Translations under genes and position numbers: made by a program
Notes under the pieces: model-generated
The model's database searches: none
What the model saw: only the letters and a program-made list of their open reading frames with translations
Told to the model about the DNA's origin: nothing
Source: a virus
Length of the DNA stretch: 33,372 bases
Virus record (IMG/VR): IMGVR_UViG_3300029915_000096
Location: 1 to 33,372 of that record
Direction: 5' to 3' (one strand)
Shown: piece by piece, positions 15,487-31,788 of the stretch
How the letters are laid out: each line of letters opens with the position of its first letter
Numbering within the stretch: position 1 is the stretch's first letter

Positions 15487-16140
15487 CTAGTTTAGGTTTA
15501 ATTCGCGCAGAAGATTATAGACGGTGCCGTTGCTTACCTTCAGCGCGTCTGCCACCTGCTGCTTGGAATACTTCGGTCGCCAGACCGATTTGCCGCCCAC
15601 GATCTTGCGGGCCTTCTGCGCCAACATCGCCTTGGCTTTAGCCTGTAGCTTCTTGTCCAGTTTCTTCGGTGTGCCCAGCTTCACGCCACGCGCCTTCAGA
15701 GACGCCATCCCGGCCTTGGTGCGCTCAATCGTAAGCTGGCGCTCAAACTCTGCCATAATCGCCAACATGCCCAGGATAAGCCTGCCTGTGGCCGTGGTGA
15801 AGTCGAAGGCTTCGGTCAGGGACTTGAACCCAGCCCCAGCCGCTTCGATCTGCGCAAGGCGCTCGTACAGGTCTTTGATGGACCGGCTAAGGCGGTCCAG
15901 CCGCCAGACCACCAGCGTATCGCCGGGGCGAAGGTCTTTGATCGCCATGTCCAGAACCGGGCGGACTTTCTTCGCGCCGCTGGTCGCTGGCTCTTCGTGA
16001 ATGTGGAAACAGCCCGCCGCTTTCAGCGCGTCAAGCTGCAAGGTCATGACCTGATCGGCGGTCGAAACCCGCGCATACCCTATCAATTCCCCTTTTGGGG
16101 GTTCTGCGGCAGGCGGTGTCGGACGGTTTTTCATCGTCAT
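15487..16140 (-). CDS. Serine recombinase (resolvase/invertase type)
   Basis: This protein of about 217 residues has the catalytic segment IGYARVSTADQ with the active Ser at about residue 26, the VWRLDRLSRS motif, the EFERQLTIERTKAGM long helix, and a C-terminal helix-turn-helix (YSKQQVADALKVSNGTVYNLL). Length and layout fit the small resolvase/invertase group rather than large serine integrases. ATG 16140 and ATG 16134 are both possible starts and neither has a clear ribosome binding site. The product could resolve multimers, invert a segment or regulate transcription. It heads the minus-strand operon from a divergent promoter region. Confidence 0.85.
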   Translation of the reverse strand: MTMKNRPTPPAAEPPKGELIGYARVSTADQVMTLQLDALKAAGCFHIHEEPATSGAKKVRPVLDMAIKDLRPGDTLVVWRLDRLSRSIKDLYERLAQIEAAGAGFKSLTEAFDFTTATGRLILGMLAIMAEFERQLTIERTKAGMASLKARGVKLGTPKKLDKKLQAKAKAMLAQKARKIVGGKSVWRPKYSKQQVADALKVSNGTVYNLLRELNLN

Positions 16141-20807: not shown

Positions 20808-21195
20808 TCTCTGGTCTTTGACGATCGCATTCCGCGGCCCGAACACATCGCTGCGGCTGACGTACAACAGCGGTGAGAAGGCGCAGGCGGCATATGAAAT
20901 GCTTAAGCGCCCCGCTCAGCCAGCGGAGGAATTTGACCGTGGCCTGGCGGCGACAACCTATGAGAAGGATATTGAGATCACGGACAGCTACGGCACCACT
21001 GCCATGGTGGACCGGGATGCGGTGATGGTGCATTGGATGACGCATTGCGGCAGCGAGGCGGAGGGCGCTAAGGCGACGCAAATTTTAAATGCGCATGCGC
21101 AAGCCAGTCTACAACGGCAATTGGCGGCGGATCCGATGCTGAAGGGTGTGATTGGCGGCACTGGCGGCCAGACTCGCCAGCCGTTCCAGATGTGA
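20794..21195 (+). CDS. Hypothetical protein before the J-domain gene
   Basis: This 133-residue protein starts at ATG 20794 (or 20800), with AAAAGG upstream. It begins with a LWSLTIAFRGPNTSLRLTYNSGEKAQAAYEML strand-helix unit, then DSYGTTAMVDRDAVMVHWMT, and a C-terminal Gln/Ala-rich helix ending in QTRQPFQM. The first unit resembles proteins that bind small ligands or dimerise by beta addition. No named family was recognised. Confidence 0.6.
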   Translation: MEMTDLWSLTIAFRGPNTSLRLTYNSGEKAQAAYEMLKRPAQPAEEFDRGLAATTYEKDIEITDSYGTTAMVDRDAVMVHWMTHCGSEAEGAKATQILNAHAQASLQRQLAADPMLKGVIGGTGGQTRQPFQM

Positions 21196-21196
21196 C

Positions 21197-21817
21197 ATGC
21201 CGGACCTCTATGCCATCCTGGGCGTGCCGCGCGATGCGGACACTGCGACAATCCGAAAGGCATATCGCAAGGCATCAAAGCGCGCGCACCCGGATGGCGG
21301 CGGCACGGCAGAGAAATTCCGCGCCGTGAGCAAAGCGCTGGAAGTCTTGAGCGATGCCGGGCGCCGCAAGGCTTACGATGAGACCGGCACAATCGAGGAT
21401 AAGCCGGTCGATAACGCGCAAAGCGAACTGATGGGCATTGTCTCGGCGTTGCTGGACGCAGTGCTTGGCGATCTGGATCAGGGCGGCATTCCTTACGAGG
21501 CGGCTGATCTGGTGCAGCGCATGACCAAGTTGGCGTCTGATCGCCAGATTCATATTCATCAGCAGCGCGCCAAACTGAAGGCCAACATCACCAAGCAGAA
21601 GCGGTTGTTCAAGCGCTTTAAGCTGAAGGGTACTGGCGAGAACTTTATGGAGGCTCTGATTGTCGGGCGCATCGCCTTTCTGGAAGGTCAGGACGCGCAG
21701 GCGCAGCGGCAGACCGATCAGATGCGCAAGGCGGAGTTGTTTATTCGAGAATACAAATTTGAGAGCGAGAATGTGTCGCCGCCATCACGATATGGCTATC
21801 AGGTTATGACATGGTAA
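21197..21817 (+). CDS. J-domain (DnaJ-like) protein
   Basis: This 206-residue protein starts at ATG 21197, two bases after the previous stop. Residues 1-66 are a full J-domain: LYAILGVPRDADTATIRKAYRK, the HPD tripeptide at 31-33, and KFRAVSKALEVLSDAGRRKAYDETG. The rest is a long helical, Lys/Gln-rich region without the zinc or substrate domains of DnaJ. It probably recruits host DnaK. The gene occupies the place where a small terminase is often found, directly before TerL, and overlaps it by 7 bases. Confidence 0.85.
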   Translation: MPDLYAILGVPRDADTATIRKAYRKASKRAHPDGGGTAEKFRAVSKALEVLSDAGRRKAYDETGTIEDKPVDNAQSELMGIVSALLDAVLGDLDQGGIPYEAADLVQRMTKLASDRQIHIHQQRAKLKANITKQKRLFKRFKLKGTGENFMEALIVGRIAFLEGQDAQAQRQTDQMRKAELFIREYKFESENVSPPSRYGYQVMTW

Positions 21818-23697
21818 AGCGCGCGACCAGATGGCTGCGGCCATTCGAGAATTTTCTTGGAAACATGCGCATCGACTCCAAGGAAGTTGCGGCGGTCGAT
21901 GAGCATGGCTCGCCGCTTAATCTATGGGACAGCCAGCGCATATTTTTGAATGAAGTGGCCTACGGCCTGGAAGATGGGCAGCACACATTCATGGCTCTCA
22001 AGGCGCGGCAGCTGGGCGTCTCAACTATCTCGCTGGCGATCGATATTTTCTGGTGCCTCGTGCATCCCGGCATGATGGGCGCGCTGGTGACGGATACTGA
22101 GGCCAACCGCAATATCTTTCGCGCCACCATCGAGCGCTACATCAAGAATCTGCCGGTTAGTTTGGTTGGCGAAAACTTCAAACTGCCGCGCATCAACCGA
22201 GACTTCGTGCAGTTTCCGAACGGAAGCCGTCTGGATTTTTTGGTGGCCGGCACACGCAGCAAGGCGACATGGGGCGAGGGCCGCGGTTACACGCTGGCGC
22301 ATTTGACGGAGGTTGCGAACTACGGCGATCCCAATGGTCTGGCTTCTTTTCGCGAGACGCTTTCTGAAACGCACCCCAACCGACTTTTCATTTACGAGAG
22401 TACCGCCAAGGGCTTTAATCACTGGAAGGATATGTGGGACGAATGCGCCCGCGATCCTTTCACCAAGCGCGGCATTTTCATTGGCTGGTGGGCCAAGGAT
22501 CTCAATCGCATCCCGCGCAAGGATCGCCGCTTCCAACTTTACGGCCTTGACCAGCCGGACGGCCAGGAGGCTGAACTTATCAACGCGGTCAAGACCAGGT
22601 TTGATTTCGATGTCAGCATGGAGCAACTGGCATGGATACGTTGGCGCACATCGGACCAGAGCGCCGATGTCAGTAATATCTCTCAGAACCTGCCGTGGGT
22701 GCCGGAGCAGGCATTTATCTTCTCAGGCTTTTCGTTCTTCCAGACGCGCCTGATCGCCCGCGATCTCAGCGACATGGACGACAACGAAAACGAATATGCC
22801 TTCAAGGCGTATCGCTATTGGATCGGCACGGACTTCTTTGCTACCAAAATGGAGCAGCTTGGCCAGGGCTCAAATCCGGATGAGTGGGAGCTGCGAGTTT
22901 GGGAAGAGCCGGTCAAGGCGGGTCAGTATGTGATCGGCTGCGATCCGGCCTTCGGGCGTAACGACTGGCGCGACAAGCATGCGATCTCCATCTGGCGCTG
23001 CTACGCGGACCGCTTGGTGCAGGTTGCGGAGTATGCCAGCCACAATATTGAGGCGCACCAATGCGCCTGGGTGCTGGCGCATCTGGCCAGCGCCTATAAG
23101 GATTGCATTGTCAATCTGGAATTGTCCGGCGGGCCAGGCAAGGCGATCATGCGCGAGTTCGACCGGCTGCGAAATTCTCTGCGTCAGGAAATGTACTCGC
23201 GCCAATTGAAAGAGTTCGATTGGGAAGATGTGCTGAACGGCATGCGCTGGTATCTCTATCATCGCCCCGACAGCATGGGCGCCGGTTATTGCTATAACTT
23301 CCTGACGACGCGCGATTCCAAGTTCGACCTGATGAACCGGCTGCGCAGCGCCTACACCACCCGCGTTCTGCATGTGCGCTCGCGCCCGCTGCTGGGTGAG
23401 ATGCAGGCAGTGGTGCAGGAAGGTTCCACCATCGAGGCACCTGGCCGGGAGAAGGATGACCGCGTGGTTGGCGCGGCGCTGGCAAACTATGCATGGGACG
23501 ATTGGATGCGGCCGCAGCTAATTGCCAACGGCATGACCTATGAGCGGGTACGGGCCGAAGAGGCCGGCGAGGCGAGCGCGTCGCGCGTGATAGTAGACCG
23601 CATCGTCTATAATTATTTCCAGCGCGCCGAGGAATTGGCGAATGAGGATCCGCGCGAGCGGGAGCCGAAGATACTTTTGGATCGGGGGTTGGTATGA
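21811..23697 (+). CDS. terL: Terminase large subunit (packaging ATPase/nuclease)
   Basis: This 628-residue protein has an ATPase domain with MALKARQLGVST (about residues 61-72) as Walker A, and AHLTEVANY (Glu near 167) as Walker B with catalytic Glu. The nuclease domain has CDPAFGRND (Asp near 378), NLELSGGPG (near 434) and EKDDRVVGAALANYAWDD (near 547) as acidic metal ligands. This is the standard TerL motor that threads DNA into the prohead through the portal. It overlaps the J-domain gene at the 5' end and an ATGA starts the next gene. No separate small terminase was recognised. Confidence 0.9.
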   Translation: MVKRATRWLRPFENFLGNMRIDSKEVAAVDEHGSPLNLWDSQRIFLNEVAYGLEDGQHTFMALKARQLGVSTISLAIDIFWCLVHPGMMGALVTDTEANRNIFRATIERYIKNLPVSLVGENFKLPRINRDFVQFPNGSRLDFLVAGTRSKATWGEGRGYTLAHLTEVANYGDPNGLASFRETLSETHPNRLFIYESTAKGFNHWKDMWDECARDPFTKRGIFIGWWAKDLNRIPRKDRRFQLYGLDQPDGQEAELINAVKTRFDFDVSMEQLAWIRWRTSDQSADVSNISQNLPWVPEQAFIFSGFSFFQTRLIARDLSDMDDNENEYAFKAYRYWIGTDFFATKMEQLGQGSNPDEWELRVWEEPVKAGQYVIGCDPAFGRNDWRDKHAISIWRCYADRLVQVAEYASHNIEAHQCAWVLAHLASAYKDCIVNLELSGGPGKAIMREFDRLRNSLRQEMYSRQLKEFDWEDVLNGMRWYLYHRPDSMGAGYCYNFLTTRDSKFDLMNRLRSAYTTRVLHVRSRPLLGEMQAVVQEGSTIEAPGREKDDRVVGAALANYAWDDWMRPQLIANGMTYERVRAEEAGEASASRVIVDRIVYNYFQRAEELANEDPREREPKILLDRGLV

Positions 23698-24253: not shown

Positions 24254-24884
24254 GGAAACCCAATACCTTGGTCATGCGCCAGTCAAAGGCGAGGGGTTCA
24301 TGGAGCCAGATCGTTACCGGGTAAAGTGTCGATGCCTCAGATGCGGACATAACTATTCGCGCATATACAAGGTCGTTCCCAAGATCGACCCGCCATGCCC
24401 CAAGAAGGCGTGCAAGGAAGCCATTGCCGCCGAGCAGCAAGAAAAGGAAACGTCGCATGTCGAGGCGATGCTGGAAACTGGCGAGACGCCTGGCCACATC
24501 GGCAACAACGTCAAGGTCAAGGCGGTAGACGCGACGGCGGAGATCGTCATGCAGGATTACGGCATGACGGATCTGAAGGACAATATGCGCGCTGGCGATG
24601 CGATGACGCCGAAGCTCACCATTCGCCAGCAAAAAATGAGCGAAGGGTTCTGGGGTGGAAAGCGTCAAAGCGACAGACGCAACCCAACTTATCAGCCCGG
24701 CATTCAGGCGCATAAGAAATCCATTGTCGATAATGCGATGTCGGGCGGGTACTTGCCGAATGTTGCGGGGGCCGCGCCGGCCGATTCTGTCACCGGCAAT
24801 ACGGTGCTGACCGACATTCACCGCAATCGCTACAAGCCGCCGGTCAATATTATCTACGATGCGAACAAGGTTCCAAAGAAGTGA
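24246..24884 (+). CDS. Hypothetical phage protein with N-terminal zinc finger
   Basis: This 212-residue protein starts at ATG 24246, overlapping the previous stop, with AAAGG upstream; the longer frame to 24006 lies inside the previous gene. RVKCRCLRCGHNYSRIY and PPCPKKACKEA make a probable zinc finger at residues 24-60. The middle is acidic-helical and the end is basic and Asn/Pro-rich with RNPTYQPGIQAHKKS. Its place between TerL and portal suggests a head or packaging accessory, but no known family was recognised. Confidence 0.6.
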   Translation: MSEETQYLGHAPVKGEGFMEPDRYRVKCRCLRCGHNYSRIYKVVPKIDPPCPKKACKEAIAAEQQEKETSHVEAMLETGETPGHIGNNVKVKAVDATAEIVMQDYGMTDLKDNMRAGDAMTPKLTIRQQKMSEGFWGGKRQSDRRNPTYQPGIQAHKKSIVDNAMSGGYLPNVAGAAPADSVTGNTVLTDIHRNRYKPPVNIIYDANKVPKK

Positions 24885-24892
24885 GGTAAACC

Positions 24893-25117
24893 ATGAAGTC
24901 CGCTCTTAAACTTGTCTCTCAAAAACCGTCTGCACCAGCGCCATACGATGAGCAGCGAGGTCGCAAGCGCATCGTTATGCTGCATGGTCATCTCTTAGCC
25001 GCGGTCGTCCGGTATGTGAATGAAGGCGCTGCTGGTACGATGAAGGATCGCATTCGGGAGGCTAGCGACCTATCCGGCATCCCGCGCAGCCTTATTGAAG
25101 TGGAGATTAAGCGATGA
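24893..25117 (+). CDS. Small hypothetical protein
   Basis: This 74-residue protein starts at ATG 24893 after GAGGTAAACC. It is basic near the start (YDEQRGRKRIVMLHGHLLAAVVRYVNEG) and helical through DRIREASDLSGIPRSLIEVEIKR. The alternation of helix and turn would allow a small DNA-binding or dimer fold, but no family was recognised. Its stop overlaps the next start as ATGA. Confidence 0.58.
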   Translation: MKSALKLVSQKPSAPAPYDEQRGRKRIVMLHGHLLAAVVRYVNEGAAGTMKDRIREASDLSGIPRSLIEVEIKR

Positions 25118-25470
25118 GGCGCGCAGCTTTAATGTTTGCGACATTGATGGTGACGGGGTGCGCGCACGACAACTATAGCGCTTCATCGCATGTCGCATCC
25201 AAGGATGAAACAGCATCCGCCGTCCGCTCTTGCAAGCGGGATATCATGCAAAGCTATGCGGTGTCAGCACCATCCAATCATAACGGCGCCTTGATTGGTG
25301 CAGTTCTGGGGGGACTGATGGGCGGCGCGCTTGGCGGGGCCATCGGCGGTGGTGCCGGCGCGGCTGCAGATCAAGCTAACGGTGTTGATCGGTATAGCAA
25401 CATCGATCAGGATATGGAGCGCTGCATGGCCGACAAGGGGTATGTCGGCACAAGCGATGACGATCACTGA
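25114..25470 (+). CDS. Glycine-zipper lipoprotein
   Basis: This 118-residue protein starts in an ATGA overlap. A lipoprotein signal is clear: basic MRRAALMFATLMVTGC with the lipobox ending in the Cys at about 16. Residues about 58-85 form a glycine zipper (LIGAVLGGLMGGALGGAIGG), which in bacterial outer membrane lipoproteins forms a membrane-spanning or assembly helix. A later pair of cysteines may form a disulphide. In a phage it could be an outer-membrane spanin-like, exclusion or envelope-modifying protein; the role is not known. It converges with the portal gene. Confidence 0.75.
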   Translation: MRRAALMFATLMVTGCAHDNYSASSHVASKDETASAVRSCKRDIMQSYAVSAPSNHNGALIGAVLGGLMGGALGGAIGGGAGAAADQANGVDRYSNIDQDMERCMADKGYVGTSDDDH

Positions 25471-25472
25471 TC

Positions 25473-25500
25473 GGCGGCGCTATTTCTTTTTTCCGCCGCC
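25473..25500. terminator. Hairpin between convergent genes
   Basis: GGCGGCG 25473-25479 pairs perfectly with CGCCGCC 25494-25500; the loop contains the portal stop codon and a TTTCTTTTTTC run. It lies between two convergent genes and could act in both directions, although the U-run is in the loop rather than after the stem. Confidence 0.4.
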
Positions 25501-27276
25501 AGCGCCCTTTTGAAGCAACTCCGGATGCTGCTTTATCAATTCTGCTTCAGCCATTTTCTTGCGTTCCGCATCTGCGACAAGCTCATCTTCCATTGGCGGA
25601 TGGGTAAGTTCGATCAGGCGCTCCTGGCTGATAGCGCCGGCCTTGGCCAAAGCGAACACTAGCTCGCGGGCGTCGGACGCAAAGACTGGCGATGACGAAT
25701 GGCTATCGACCGACACGCGCGAATCCTCATCAACGTCCTTAAGATAAAACTCGATTGCCTTCATCTTTGGTGCCGGCGGCTGAGCCAGAAGATCGCTGGG
25801 CGGCAAGGATGCCTGAATGCCGGCGTCTTCTTCGGTAACGTATGCTTTGAACTTCGTGTCGCTCTTTGCCTGCAGGATCATAAAGGCCAGCGCGCCAATT
25901 CTGGAAACCTGTTTTTCTCCGCGTAGCGCCCGGCGCTTTAGCCGCGGGCTCGCCATGCGCACCAGAGTCTCGGCATGGCCTTGGGCGCGAACGCCGGACT
26001 CGCCGCGACCTGACATCACCGCAGTTGCGTCCGCCATATCGTCAAAGATGCCCTCGGCTTCGTGCATGCTTTCATAGAGGCCGACAGGTATCTCCGGAAG
26101 TATAGGCTTGACTTCGGCGTTCGGGTTGGGATCCGTCATCCAGCCGCCAGGCTTGCGCAGACGGCTGATGGCGATTTCATTCTGGGACGATCCGCGTACA
26201 AACAGCGGCGGATCTTCCTGCTTGCGCAAAAGCTTGTTGATACCATCGATGCGGGCGTTGAGCGTCTTCTGTGCGAGACCGACGCACGCCACTTCCGAGC
26301 GGCCCCAGAAATAACCAGCGATTGGGTTAAGGCAAATTTCCGAGAATGGGTGCTGACCCTTGAGGGGATTTTCGTCATCGGCGCCGGACAGTGGATTGGT
26401 GGGATCGGTTGAGAAAATATTACGCTGGACGGTCTTGCCTTCCAGCACGCAGTCGGGGCCGATGAGCTGGATCGTCACCCAGTCAGAGCGCTCAGTATCC
26501 CAAACCCATAATTCATCAAACTTGATAAGCCCCGCGAGCGTCTTTGGGGACCATGTTGGTGCCGGACCGGACAACCAATTCACCAAGCCGCGCGAGGTCT
26601 GCGATGTGTTCTGGCCAGCGACCTGATAGGGATTGGTGCCGCCCAAGATAACCTGCTTGAGCATCGTGTCGCGATCGGGGCCTTCGCCATCCTTGGCTGG
26701 CGTGATGTAGGTCTGCGCGCGCTTCCATATTTCTTTTGCATCATGTCGGTCAGCGATCATCCGCTCAAATTCTTGCGGGATCATGTAGGTAGTTTGGAAA
26801 AACGCTTCCTGCCGGTCTAGCTCGCACACATCTTCGCGCATGACGCCCATAAATTCCGGCTGGATCATCCATGCATCGATGCGCTTGTGCGATGGGTTCC
26901 AAAGTTGCTTTACGAAGGTCTTGCCTTTGATAAGAGCCCAGTCGAAAGCCTCGCATAATTTGAGATCGATATCGGCGCCGCGGATTTGCGAGTTGAGTTC
27001 CTTGGCGGCGCGCGATCCCTTGGCGCGCTCTTCAGGCCCGACATCTTCCGGCGGAGTAACGGCAAAACGAAGGTCGGCCGGCGAGTAGATGTTGGAGGAA
27101 AGCTTTTCGATATAGGATAGCGTTTTGTTGTAAGTTTGCGGGCTACCGTTCTCGTCGCCGGTCAGATACATCGAGCGATAAACGGCGCCGCGCTGAACGC
27201 GATCAACCAGCGAAACTGAGCAGTTTTGAATGACTTCTGTTGCCCAGTGGCCGATGTGCTTCTTGGGAATGCGCAT
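25480..27276 (-). CDS. Portal protein (reverse strand)
   Basis: This 598-residue protein has the layout of podoviral-type portals: an N-terminal region with QRGAVYRSMYLTGDENGSPQTY, an acidic wing, a central NPIAGYFWGRSEVACVGLAQKTLNARIDGINK stretch, a DDMADATAVMSGRGESGVRAQGHAETLVRMASPRLKRRA helix region, and a C-terminal HPELLQKGAGGGKKK tail. The portal forms the dodecameric channel at the head vertex that works with TerL and the adaptor. It is encoded on the opposite strand from all neighbouring head and packaging genes. No clear ribosome binding site precedes ATG 27276, but a TATAAA box sits 5 bases upstream. Confidence 0.85.
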   Translation of the reverse strand: MRIPKKHIGHWATEVIQNCSVSLVDRVQRGAVYRSMYLTGDENGSPQTYNKTLSYIEKLSSNIYSPADLRFAVTPPEDVGPEERAKGSRAAKELNSQIRGADIDLKLCEAFDWALIKGKTFVKQLWNPSHKRIDAWMIQPEFMGVMREDVCELDRQEAFFQTTYMIPQEFERMIADRHDAKEIWKRAQTYITPAKDGEGPDRDTMLKQVILGGTNPYQVAGQNTSQTSRGLVNWLSGPAPTWSPKTLAGLIKFDELWVWDTERSDWVTIQLIGPDCVLEGKTVQRNIFSTDPTNPLSGADDENPLKGQHPFSEICLNPIAGYFWGRSEVACVGLAQKTLNARIDGINKLLRKQEDPPLFVRGSSQNEIAISRLRKPGGWMTDPNPNAEVKPILPEIPVGLYESMHEAEGIFDDMADATAVMSGRGESGVRAQGHAETLVRMASPRLKRRALRGEKQVSRIGALAFMILQAKSDTKFKAYVTEEDAGIQASLPPSDLLAQPPAPKMKAIEFYLKDVDEDSRVSVDSHSSSPVFASDARELVFALAKAGAISQERLIELTHPPMEDELVADAERKKMAEAELIKQHPELLQKGAGGGKKK

Positions 27277-27303
27277 GTTTTATAGCCCGGCCACTATGGA
27301 TTG

Positions 27304-27321
27304 TGTAGACACCATATATCA
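27304..27321 (+). promoter_or_regulatory. Second copy of the 18-bp motif
   Basis: TGTAGACACCATATATCA differs by one base from the copy at 20061-20078. It lies between the portal and the plus-strand head operon. A TTGACG at 27324-27329 follows, with TATGGT 18 bp beyond it at 27348-27353, giving a weak promoter candidate for the head genes. Confidence 0.45.
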
Positions 27322-27355
27322 TGTTGACGAAGAAGCTAGTACGAGAATATGGTGT
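27309..27355. repeat. Inverted repeat between portal and head operon
   Basis: ACACCATAT 27309-27317 is the exact reverse complement of ATATGGTGT 27347-27355 with 29 bp between them. The left arm overlaps the 18-bp motif, so both may belong to one regulator or recombinase site. Confidence 0.5.
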
Positions 27356-27423
27356 GCTTTGTCTGTGGGCAAGTTGGATCGAAATGGTTCTCCAACACCC
27401 AAGTCTTAGCAAGGAGCCAAGCT

Positions 27424-27468
27424 ATGAAACGCAAGGGTCGTAAGTCGAAGCGCAGCAAGCGCAAGTAG
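27424..27468 (+). CDS. 14-residue polybasic peptide
   Basis: ATG 27424 follows AAGGAG at the usual distance and encodes MKRKGRKSKRSKRK, where 10 of 14 residues are Lys or Arg. The ribosome binding site is as strong as any in the window. A long stem-loop follows 11 bases after the stop. It could bind DNA or RNA inside the head, or be a leader peptide. Very short, so moderate confidence only. Confidence 0.5.
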   Translation: MKRKGRKSKRSKRK

Positions 27469-27478
27469 TCCGGTGAAG

Positions 27479-27511
27479 CGGTGAGGCGGGTTAACCGCCA
27501 GAGCCTCACCG
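27479..27511 (+). terminator. Strong stem-loop after the polybasic ORF
   Basis: CGGTGAGGC 27479-27487 pairs perfectly with GCCTCACCG 27503-27511. The 15-base loop includes the palindrome GGTTAACC. The stem is GC-rich but lacks a following U-run, so it may be a pause or attenuator rather than a full terminator. Confidence 0.4.
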
Positions 27512-27555
27512 TCCACCTACTTCGCCGCGCTTATCAGGGCAAAAGATTTTTCTGA

Positions 27556-27954
27556 ATGGACATGCCATCACCAACCCCCGCCGCCGCTCCGCCCCCCATG
27601 GGCGGAATGCCGCCGCGCCCCCCGGCCCATATTGGTCCGGTCACAACGCCGAGCATCAATGGCGGCAATCAGGTTTCCGCTCATGCCGCGATCAAGAACG
27701 CCGCTGAGCTTCTCCAGCAGTCGCTCCTTCAGCTTCCGATGGGCGGCGAAGAGCACACCAAACTTCTCGGTATCGTCAAGCAGCTCGCCGGCATGACTGC
27801 CGATAGTGCGCCGGACCCGCACGCGCAGATGCAGTCTCTTGTCGAGATGGCGCGCAAGGCTGGCCAGGGCGGCCCGCCCCCCGGACTCAATGGCGCCATG
27901 CCCGCCATGGCTCCCCCACCCCCTCCGCCAGACGCTTCGGCGGGGGCAGCTTAA
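27556..27954 (+). CDS. Pro/Met-rich small structural protein
   Basis: This 132-residue protein has Pro-rich ends (SPTPAAAPPPMGGMPPRPP at the start and PPPPPPDASAGAA at the end) and a helical middle: SAHAAIKNAAELLQQSLLQLPMGGEEHTKLLGIVKQLAGMT. Small proteins of this kind are frequent directly after portals in short-tailed phages and may be part of the scaffold or head interior. The ribosome binding site is weak. No enzymatic motif is present. Confidence 0.65.
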   Translation: MDMPSPTPAAAPPPMGGMPPRPPAHIGPVTTPSINGGNQVSAHAAIKNAAELLQQSLLQLPMGGEEHTKLLGIVKQLAGMTADSAPDPHAQMQSLVEMARKAGQGGPPPGLNGAMPAMAPPPPPPDASAGAA

Positions 27955-27966
27955 CAGGAGATCGCA

Positions 27967-28152
27967 ATGGGCGACAGCACAGGCAAATTCCCCGGTCCGT
28001 ACATAAATGACGTTCGTAAGGACGATCCGATCATGAAGCGCGTCCCGATGGACACGCTCGACATTGGCGCCCGCAAGTCCGGCATGCCGAAGTCCATGGA
28101 TGACCAGGCCAAGATCCAGCATGTTGGCGAAGCCGCTTCGGGGAGGAAGTAA
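27967..28152 (+). CDS. Small hypothetical head-region protein
   Basis: This 61-residue protein starts at ATG 27967 after AGGAGATCGCA. It is basic and low in hydrophobic residues, with KFPGPYINDVRKDDPIMKRVPMD and a KSMDDQAKIQHVGEAASGRK tail, suggesting a mostly extended polypeptide. The strong ribosome binding site suggests abundant expression along with head genes. No family was recognised. Confidence 0.62.
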   Translation: MGDSTGKFPGPYINDVRKDDPIMKRVPMDTLDIGARKSGMPKSMDDQAKIQHVGEAASGRK

Positions 28153-28155
28153 GCC

Positions 28156-28752
28156 ATGAGTGAGACCGTCACCGTTCTCAAGGCCGAACTTGATACGCTG
28201 CGTGCGATCAAGGCCCTGATGGACAAGACCTGGGACAGCAAGGAAACCGGCTCGAAGCTGCGCGCCCTGCTGAAGACCGTCGATCCGAACCTGAAAACTC
28301 CGGAAGACATTACGGATTCCGTGATTGCGCCGGTCAAGGGCGAGATGGAAGAAACCCGCAAGCAGGTCACTGGCCTGACTGAGCGCTTGGACAAGTTTCT
28401 GACCGAGACCAAGGACAAGGACGACACCGCCACGCTGCGCGCCGATCTGGCCAAAGCCCAGAAGAAATTTGGCCTGGATGACGAAGGTCTGACCAAGGTC
28501 ATGCAGCGCATGAAGGACAAGAGCAATCCGGATGTGGAAGCCGCGGCCGCGTGGGTTGCCAGTGAGGCACCCAAGCCGATGCCGATTTCCGACCATGGCA
28601 TTACCCCGCTTGGCGCCGATCTTTTCGGCACCACGAAGGAAGACGACAAGTGGAAGGGCCTGCAGACTGGTGGCGATCCGTTCCGCCCCGGTGGCTGGTT
28701 CGACCAGGAAGCGATCAAGATTCTCAACGAGCCGGCGGAGCAGGCGGCATAA
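28156..28752 (+). CDS. Probable scaffolding protein
   Basis: This 198-residue protein lies directly before the major capsid gene. It is strongly charged and helical, with a coiled-coil-like stretch at about residues 60-120 (VKGEMEETRKQVTGLTERLDKFLTETKDKDDTATLRADLAKAQKKFG). The C-terminal third is Gly/Pro-rich with KPMPISDHGITPLGADLFG. Position, charge and coiled-coil nature match scaffolding proteins that guide prohead assembly and then leave. There is no protease motif. The call is from context and composition, not homology. Confidence 0.65.
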   Translation: MSETVTVLKAELDTLRAIKALMDKTWDSKETGSKLRALLKTVDPNLKTPEDITDSVIAPVKGEMEETRKQVTGLTERLDKFLTETKDKDDTATLRADLAKAQKKFGLDDEGLTKVMQRMKDKSNPDVEAAAAWVASEAPKPMPISDHGITPLGADLFGTTKEDDKWKGLQTGGDPFRPGGWFDQEAIKILNEPAEQAA

Positions 28753-28787
28753 TCGCCTAACGGCAGAGCAAGGGGAGTTGGAGTAAC

Positions 28788-29843
28788 ATGGCAGCGTTTA
28801 GCGGTGGAATTACAGGGGGCATTGTCCCCGGCGGCGCAATTGGCGCGCAACTTGCGGCGATCACCCGCCGCGCGGCTGTGCCGTCCGTCTTCGTCCAGAT
28901 TTACCAGGGGCATCCGCTTCTGTCGCTATTGCTTAGCAACGCGCAGTCGGCCAAGGGTGGTATCAGCCAGGTCACGATCCCGGCGCAGGGCGCATCCTTT
29001 GTGCAGTTCTCGTGGGGCTCTTTTGCCGGCGACTTCCCGATGCCGGAAGATCAGGCCGCGATTCAGAATGCCCAGTTCAATCTCAAGCTTGGCATGTGCC
29101 CGATTGGCTTCTTCGGCATGGAGGCGCTGATCCAGTCATCGGAAGTCATCATTCCGAAACTTCGCGCCGTGATGAGCGACGCCGCGATTGTCATCAAGCA
29201 GAACTTCGCCAGCGCGCTCTACACCAACAACTATGCCAACACCTTGGCGTTCGACTCGCTCTATCAGGCGTATGACAACGGCACAAATGTCCCAGCCTAT
29301 GGCGGCATTACACGCGCCGGAAACCAGTGGTGGAATGGCCAGTACATTCCCAATCAGGCTTCCATTGCCAACCGCACCGGCATGGCCATTACCCTGACCC
29401 GCGTGCAGAACGGCGCGGGCGGCGAGGCACCGGACTTTGCCGTGATGAACCCGGCCGATTGGGCGACGCTCATGGCCGACTTCATGGGCTACGAGCAGTA
29501 CCAGACCCGTCCGAAGTCGATCTACGGCAAGGATGATGTGGTCAACGCCGGCTTCCGTGCAATCCGCGTGCTGGACACGCCGATCTTCCCGGATCCCTTC
29601 TGTCCGCAGGGCGAGATGTACGCGCTTAATTCGCGTTATCTCGCGATGTATGTTTCCGAATATGCGCCGTTTGTGTTCTCCGGTTTCGAGTCAACGATTC
29701 CGCAGGGCCAGATCGCGAGCATCGGTGTTCTGATTTCGGCGCTCAACTTGGTCTGTGCAAAGCCTTCTTCGGGCGCGCATCTGACCGGGCTGGCAGCGCC
29801 GGCATGGCCTGGCGTCCTCGGCACAACGCCGGCCGTCATTTAA
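28788..29843 (+). CDS. Major capsid protein
   Basis: This 351-residue protein starts at ATG 28788 after a GGGGAGTTGGAGT ribosome binding site. It begins GGITGGIVPGGAIGAQLAAITRRAAVP, then SFVQFSWGSFAGDFPMPEDQ, and has a FAVMNPADWATLMADFMGYEQYQTRP middle and an ALNSRYLAMYVSEYAPFVFSGFESTIP C-terminal part typical of HK97-fold-like coat proteins of short-tailed phages. Size and position after a scaffold-like gene and before adaptor genes support it as the main coat protein. No delta domain or protease gene is present. Confidence 0.85.
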   Translation: MAAFSGGITGGIVPGGAIGAQLAAITRRAAVPSVFVQIYQGHPLLSLLLSNAQSAKGGISQVTIPAQGASFVQFSWGSFAGDFPMPEDQAAIQNAQFNLKLGMCPIGFFGMEALIQSSEVIIPKLRAVMSDAAIVIKQNFASALYTNNYANTLAFDSLYQAYDNGTNVPAYGGITRAGNQWWNGQYIPNQASIANRTGMAITLTRVQNGAGGEAPDFAVMNPADWATLMADFMGYEQYQTRPKSIYGKDDVVNAGFRAIRVLDTPIFPDPFCPQGEMYALNSRYLAMYVSEYAPFVFSGFESTIPQGQIASIGVLISALNLVCAKPSSGAHLTGLAAPAWPGVLGTTPAVI

Positions 29844-31008: not shown

Positions 31009-31788
31009 ATGGCGCAGGAACTTGGCTGGTATTTGAACGACGCCTCGGCTTTGCTCCGGGATTCGTCCAATCTGTTCACATCACAAGCGCAGCTCACCCG
31101 CTGGATCAATCAGGCCAGGCGCGAGGCTGCCAAGTTTACCGGCTGTATCCGCGCGCTGATTGCTGGCACTGCCCCCCAAGGCAATAGCGCCCTCGCTGGA
31201 ACGATGATCGCAGGCGCCGCCCTCGCCGGTCTGGACCAGCAGACATCTTTTGCCACAATCCCAGGCGTTGAGATGTACCCTTACGAGTTTGCCAATCCGT
31301 ACTTGCGGGCGCAGAACGCCGGTATAAAGGCGATCATCGATGTTCTGGATATTTCGGTATCGTGGGGGGCGACGCGGCCGACCTTGAACTGGATGCCGTG
31401 GGGAGACCTTCAGGCGCTGGCGCGGTCCTACAATGTCGGCGTGACCAGCTATCCATTTGCCTGGGCGTGCCAGGGTGATGGCACCCGCGGCAAGGTTTTT
31501 CTCTTTCCTATCCCCAGCGTTGGCGGCATCAGTGGTGAGATGGAGTGGGATGTTATTTGCATTCCGACAGATCTTAATACCAACGATGACTATGACGCTA
31601 TTCCGGAATCCTTTCAGGATGCGATCAAGTACCGCGCGGTCGCGCTTGCCCTCATGGCATCGTTTCGGTTTACCGAGTCTCAGGTTCATACCCAGATGTT
31701 CTTGACTGAACTCGGTGTTGATCGCGCGTCAGCCAAGCGCGGCGCAGTTCAGAATTATTATTGGCAAACTGATGTATTGGGCAGCTAA
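31009..31788 (+). CDS. Head-tail adaptor protein
   Basis: This 259-residue protein has an N-terminal helical region with LGWYLNDASALLRDSSNLFTSQAQLTRWINQARREAAKFTG, the typical start of short-tailed phage adaptors (SU10/P22 gp4-like), which bind below the portal. The rest is beta-rich with ISVSWGATRPTLNWMPWGDLQAL and FLFPIPSVGG, ending in DAIKYRAVALALMASFRFTESQVHTQMF. It follows the capsid block and precedes the stopper-like gene by a TAATG overlap. The order capsid, adaptor, stopper fits the family. Confidence 0.75.
   Translation: MAQELGWYLNDASALLRDSSNLFTSQAQLTRWINQARREAAKFTGCIRALIAGTAPQGNSALAGTMIAGAALAGLDQQTSFATIPGVEMYPYEFANPYLRAQNAGIKAIIDVLDISVSWGATRPTLNWMPWGDLQALARSYNVGVTSYPFAWACQGDGTRGKVFLFPIPSVGGISGEMEWDVICIPTDLNTNDDYDAIPESFQDAIKYRAVALALMASFRFTESQVHTQMFLTELGVDRASAKRGAVQNYYWQTDVLGS

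Follow-up and report, generated by a model that had tools for sequence, protein, structure and literature searches.

A minus-strand portal gene between plus-strand terminase and capsid genes: a stable orientation that has changed more than once in a virus group

Introduction

In phage annotation, packaging and head genes are usually expected to keep almost the same order and strand, and this expectation serves as a guide. The window analysed here, a virus record of 33,372 bases, raises the question of how a portal gene came to lie on the minus strand between plus-strand genes for the large terminase subunit (TerL) and the capsid, and what this placement might do. The initial annotation, which drew attention to the layout, considered an inversion event or a switch, and pointed to a serine recombinase gene and to a 9-bp inverted repeat beside the portal. 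Our best explanation, which we consider probable, is that the portal is a fixed and functional gene that was inverted during evolution and is read as a divergent late unit with the head operon.

Results

The portal gene and its neighbours

The locus contains the following features.

21811-23697, plus strand: TerL gene, 39% identity to the annotated TerL of MW202753
24246-24884, plus strand: conserved gene o24237, which overlaps the portal start in most co-oriented relatives and is still plus in the window
24893-25470, plus strand: two small ORFs that separate o24237 from the portal stop
25473-25500: GC-rich hairpin spanning the ends of the convergent genes (a 51-nt piece has dG -17.7 kcal/mol and z -2.15)
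25480-27276, minus strand: portal protein gene, an intact 598-aa ORF with an ATG start, inverted relative to its neighbours
27277-27423: divergent intergenic region of 147 nt, from the portal start to the head-operon start
27309-27355: inverted repeat ACACCATAT-N29-ATATGGTGT with two outward-facing TATGGT hexamers
27324-27353, plus strand: promoter-like TTGACG-N18-TATGGT, directed toward the head operon
27424-27468, plus strand: 14-aa basic micro-gene MKRKGRKSKRSKRK, preceded by AAGGAG, the first ORF on the head-operon side
27556-28752, plus strand: head-operon genes o27556, o27967 and o28156, in an order conserved in relatives
28788-29843, plus strand: major capsid protein (MCP) gene (phrog_9953, E 1.7e-21)
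31009-31788, plus strand: SU10-type head-tail adaptor gene (Pfam PF24175, E 8e-10)

TerL is followed by five small plus-strand ORFs that extend up to position 25470, and everything from position 27424 on (the tiny ORF, 27556, 27967, 28156 and the MCP gene) is plus as well. The ORF list, in which the neighbours are all plus, thus bears out the placement of a minus-strand portal between TerL and the capsid genes. No family match above the cut-off was obtained for o27556, o27967 and o28156 (scaffold position), and among the loci compared, L002 (described below) included, the two small ORFs at 24893-25470 had matches only in the window and its twin contig. An Rfam scan of positions 24800-28800 at gathering scores and a megablast search of the right part of the window against phages gave no match. 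Directly upstream of TerL lies a gene for a DnaJ-domain protein (21194-21817, plus; Pfam 2e-18), relatives of which are also found upstream of TerL in loci L007 and L054, and a tRNA-Ala gene (anticodon ggc; 84-165, minus) is located close to the left end of the record.

Searches of the portal protein against Pfam and PHROGs gave no match. The protein is 30-32% identical to the annotated portals of MW202753 and MW202825, and the top Foldseek match of its AlphaFold model (pLDDT 78, pTM 0.76) is the portal of SU10 (7z44, E 4e-17). VIA-align of the model gave a Z of 22.6 over 413 residues for the SU10 portal, tied with the Pan3 portal complex at 23.2, and the Foldseek and VIA-align matches shown are all, by their titles, portals or portal-bearing complexes. 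Judged by its predicted portal fold and its location between the large terminase and capsid genes, the 598-aa minus-strand ORF is a tailed-phage portal. A relative with the same layout and orientation, L002 (IMGVR 3300021181_000067), has a portal that is 74% and an MCP that is 89% identical to those of the window. Between these two viruses the portal has a dN of 0.21 and a dS, near saturation, of 1.95 (MCP: 0.094 and 1.18), and because of this difference between the portal's dN and dS the codon comparison shows that purifying selection acts on the inverted portal between the window and L002.

Orientation of the portal among relatives

Relatives were found by scans with the portal, TerL, the MCP and an MCP alignment; same-contig duplicates were dropped, near-identical viruses from different samples were kept, and orientation was read against the MCP, or against TerL where the MCP was missing. 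With the best 80 of 135 taken in the last viral scan, and with the window included, there are 122 loci with a portal, 64 of them antiparallel and 58 co-oriented. Five MCP-matching loci had no portal match in the scanned stretch; for one of them, L056, a longer stretch showed the portal to be co-oriented, and this locus is counted in the 122. Thus, the comparison of gene order and strand that the initial annotation had proposed brought out both orientations. They never occur together among close relatives: none of the 465 portal pairs with at least 60% identity (from 102 portals of at least 380 aa) is discordant, and the closest discordant pair, L070 and L149, is 59.5% identical. Contig IMGVR 3300030045_000037, a twin that may stem from the same site and represent the same virus, is identical to the window over 12,901 bases and has the same orientation. 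Taken together, the antiparallel portal looks like an old, stable state and not like a switch.

The same data bear on whether the layout is an assembly artefact at the borders or a misannotated ORF. Nothing but the oddity of the layout speaks for this, and it is refuted by the presence of the antiparallel layout in 64 of the 122 loci, from many IMG/VR metagenomes, by the dN and dS values and by the predicted portal fold, so that we regard it as practically dismissed. For annotators this is a caution that an antiparallel portal is no assembly error.

One fragment of the same virus group, L159 (4,354 bases), is binned in a MAG named uncultured Geobacteraceae and has the same MCP as L135 and L136. 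Instead of host genome, it may represent a viral contig that entered the bin and, because 4.3 kb is too short, it gives no host name.

The recombinase gene and the flanks of the portal

According to another explanation, the portal is part of a DNA switch, in which a site-specific recombinase, for example the serine recombinase encoded at 15487-16140, flips the gene on and off or between two expression states. A gene of the resolvase/invertase type is indeed present 9 kb from the portal (Pfam Resolvase, 3e-40), the 9-bp inverted repeat adjoins the portal and is exact (arms 27309-27317 and 27347-27355), and an imperfect 19-nt pair lies on the portal flanks. However, relatives of the recombinase outside the window were seen in nine loci (which differ in reach) that are all co-oriented, so that we see no link between the recombinase and the flip. 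The 9-bp repeat, as already noticed at the outset, has no partner on the left side, and the suggested search of both portal flanks for matching inverted repeats gave nothing beyond chance for the window: its best inverted match across the portal, the 19-nt pair (25342-25360 and 27786-27804, 84%), was equalled or exceeded in 35 of 200 shuffles. An exact inverted border match longer than chance was present in one of 46 antiparallel loci (L152). Hence, the two characteristics of Gin/Hin-type systems, inverted recombination sites on both borders and both orientations among near-identical genomes, were not observed, the latter in any of the 465 pairs. The twin contig shares the orientation of the window, and growth would be difficult to explain if an essential gene were switched off. 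A switch is therefore very improbable in our view. Of the two options that had been put forward, the inversion event is upheld by co-oriented outgroups and repeated changes (see below), and the switch is not supported, given the lack of discordant pairs and, in the window, of flanking repeats above chance.

How often the orientation changed

The MCP tree (105 rows) requires at least seven orientation changes and the portal tree (97 rows) five. A first TerL tree (68 rows, without L104-L106 and L148/L149) shows one change. In a second TerL tree (50 rows), to which L105, L106, L148, L149 and three more rows were added and from which distant or near-identical rows were dropped, there are three, and a tree of TerL plus MCP (37 rows, a chosen subset) has four; in neither case did any of 200 bootstrap trees have a single change. 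The starred branches alone force two changes on each of the MCP, portal, 50-row TerL and TerL plus MCP trees. The placing of all antiparallel portals in a single clade is rejected by the AU test on the portal tree (p 7e-4, or 7e-5 without L104-L106) and on TerL plus MCP (p 9e-115). Furthermore, L148 and L149 are sisters of the co-oriented L070 at 100/100 in the 50-row TerL tree, and it is therefore firm that the orientation changed more than once in this virus group.

The differing borders described below suggest at least three flips. The third, in L104-L106, is supported by its different border and not by the AU test: on TerL plus MCP, L105/L106 and the main antiparallel group as one clade are unrejected (p 0.285). 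When L105, L106 and L148 are left out, one antiparallel clade is allowed (AU p 0.53), and because the position of the window on TerL plus MCP is poorly resolved, the data are compatible with one inversion shared by the window and the large antiparallel clade.

Borders of the inverted unit

The end of o24237 overlaps the portal start in 22 of the 25 co-oriented loci compared, with start codons assigned by rule and L056 not counted. Where an antiparallel portal accompanies a plus-strand o24237, the two stops are 0-17 nt apart in 19 of 37 loci. The remaining 18, which include the window, have 36 nt to 8.2 kb between the stops, partly taken up by cargo genes. In L104, L105 and L106, o24237 is inverted along with the portal, and the portal of L148 and L149 is followed by three or four small ORFs on the minus strand (by a crude choice of ORFs). 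Since o24237 and these small ORFs vary in it, the inverted unit differs among lineages. Its right border is upstream of the head operon in each lineage. TerL shares the strand of the capsid genes in the window, and does so too in those antiparallel loci that gave a TerL match.

Each change on the trees could be either a gain or a reversal. A single old inversion after which several lineages returned to co-orientation would accord with this ambiguity, and with the poor resolution of the deep forks of the TerL and TerL plus MCP trees. However, the co-oriented outgroups make this history longer in steps, it would have had to restore the overlap of o24237 and the portal seen in those 22 loci, and the inverted units differ in content; we consider it improbable. 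Because the outgroups and SU10 are co-oriented, the antiparallel state is probably derived, and co-orientation is well supported as the ancestral state. The same co-orientation and the conserved overlap lead us to favour repeated gains.

Alternatively, the changes may be gene swaps, in which recombination placed a relative's portal into this slot in the reverse direction. This would be in line with the stronger divergence of the portal than of the MCP between the window and L002 (74% vs 89% identity), and with the coming and going of cargo genes beside the portal. On the other hand, L104-L106 carry o24237 and the portal together as a unit, and L070 and L148-L149 group identically on the MCP, portal and TerL trees, so that the flip in L148/L149 needed no portal from outside this grouping. 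Such a replacement is unlikely, in our judgement.

Cargo genes of about 7-8 kb lie beside the portal in L095 (L054 contig), L097 (L076 contig), L174 (L101 contig) and L096 (L056 contig). They are located between o24237 and the inverted portal in the first three, mostly plus in L054 and L101 and mixed in L076, and between the portal and the head operon in L056, where they are mostly minus. The strands in L054 and L056 would agree with a large inversion dragging the cargo along, and those in L076 are mixed, but we do not claim this because the ORF comparison gave no cargo proteins common to L054/L076 and L056.

The divergent gap

Both arms of the 9-bp repeat are on the same side of the portal, and the repeat looks more like part of a promoter region than like a recombination half-site. 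An inverted repeat of equal length appeared in 8 of 300 shuffles of the gap 27277-27423. L002 has kept the 7-bp core of the repeat; the parts retained in its gap, which has otherwise diverged, are ACCATATATC, TTGACG and AATATGGTG, and the spacer of its rightward promoter-like sequence is N17. The best leftward promoter-like match of the window (8/12) is not the mirrored TATGGT, and the right repeat arm overlaps with the -10 of this match. Prokaryotic bidirectional promoters are reported to be pseudo-symmetrical (PMC12825309), which fits the repeat in the gap without proving it.

We scanned the 150 nt beyond the portal for sites with at least 9/12 matches to the sigma-70 consensus only, with 20 shuffles, in 45 distinct antiparallel loci (L104-L106 left out) and 43 co-oriented loci. 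In these counts, which are indicative because related sequences are counted as independent, rightward sites were present in 24 of the 45 antiparallel loci (shuffle mean 4.6) and leftward sites in 12 (shuffle mean 4.25, highest 8), and the co-oriented loci had rightward sites in 8 of 43 (shuffle mean 3.1) and leftward sites in 4 (3.35). The candidate start sites in the divergent gap are consensus sites only, clear in the rightward and weak in the leftward direction, and the putative leftward promoter signal of the antiparallel loci is modest. At the other end of the portal, the hairpin at 25473-25500 is a possible shared terminator of the convergent genes.

A basic micro-gene between the portal and capsid genes

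The micro-gene found in the window is conserved in many relatives, in which it has 9-19 codons, about two thirds of them for K and R (K/R/H-rich), and a Shine-Dalgarno sequence, and lies between the portal and capsid genes, as a rule directly upstream of o27556. Strict criteria detect it in 23 of 28 co-oriented and 29 of 58 antiparallel cases, which makes 52 of the 86 distinct portal-to-head gaps; shuffles would give 0.15, and the reverse strand has none. Under looser criteria it is found in 84 of 107 loci, L054, L070 and L078 among others, as 60 distinct peptides, and not in the other 23, which include L148, L149 and L007. Hence, it occurs with both portal orientations, and candidates are present in the distant MW202753 and MW202825 (L004, L005). 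In 16 close pairs, which overlap and come from peptides that passed a filter favouring basic ones, the single-base codon differences are 28 synonymous versus 2 nonsynonymous. As guesses, the product could condense DNA, serve in assembly or act as a leader peptide; the micro-gene merits separate study.

Discussion

A fixed and functional inversion, the reading that we favour, would have arisen and would work as follows. In the ancestor, TerL, o24237, the portal, the tiny gene and the capsid genes would all have shared a strand, and the start of the portal would have overlapped the stop of o24237. In the lineage of the window, the portal alone would have been inverted in place, which would have brought its start next to the head-operon promoter region and turned its stop toward the TerL side. 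RNA polymerase starting from 27277-27423 would then read leftward into the portal, and the same region would be read rightward into the tiny gene, the scaffold-position gene and the capsid gene. As an outcome, portal and capsid would be made together, and the portal dose would be uncoupled from TerL. Other lineages of the virus group would have undergone comparable flips with other borders. The orientation of the portal, its stability and the occurrence of more than one change are observed in the comparison of relatives; the leftward promoter activity, the timing and the benefit of the inverted portal are what we infer from the layout.

The assumption that head genes are normally co-oriented, made in the initial annotation, has an exception in phage P2, whose portal and terminase genes are opposite to the capsid genes. 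In the P2 late region (NC_001895; genes Q and P against O and N), the portal is likewise read away from the scaffold and capsid genes, and the divergent region contains an annotated start site for each operon, with an activator site between the two. The portal of the window is also opposite to the scaffold/capsid strand; however, the large terminase of P2 is inverted with the portal, whereas TerL of the window stays on the capsid strand. Because the terminase does not go with the portal, we do not file the layout as P2-type. Most likely, by analogy, it acts like the divergent node of P2, minus the inverted terminase.

Other phages resemble the window in content and differ from it in orientation. 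Kuravirus SU10 provides the best solved portal match (Foldseek; tied top in VIA-align) and shares the head-tail adaptor family, but its TerL, portal, scaffold and major head protein genes are all on one strand. Likewise, MW202753.1 and MW202825.1, uncultured phages from Manatee Spring, have the same order of TerL, portal and capsid genes, with a co-oriented portal, unlike the window. In the phiCbK-like phages, the portal is located 18-20 kb downstream of terL and heads a plus-strand structural module, and the available text of PMC3556154 describes no single-gene portal inversion for them. Inversion of the portal alone did not turn up in searches of open-access papers, including passages of PMC8601537 and PMC3556154.

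More than one strand change has thus affected a single essential head gene and mostly spared the genes around it, and the repeated flips are natural replicates for asking what purpose the transcription unit of the portal serves. Twelve copies of the portal are needed, versus hundreds of the capsid protein. We tentatively propose, as an idea that may well prove wrong, that a hot spot lies between the terminase and the head operon, at which convergent inversions have affected the portal, by itself or together with an adjacent gene, at least three times, with different borders and each time head-to-head with the head operon. Selection would favour a P2-like divergent node for the portal:capsid ratio without moving the terminase, and this node as a rule would carry the conserved micro-gene, whose basic peptide (about 12 aa) may aid head assembly or DNA packaging.

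A minor observation concerns the terminase gene itself. The TerL of L043 (5153-9208), and those of L026, L042 and L045, were matched as two or three pieces within one long frame, as if in-frame, intein-like inserts interrupted the gene.
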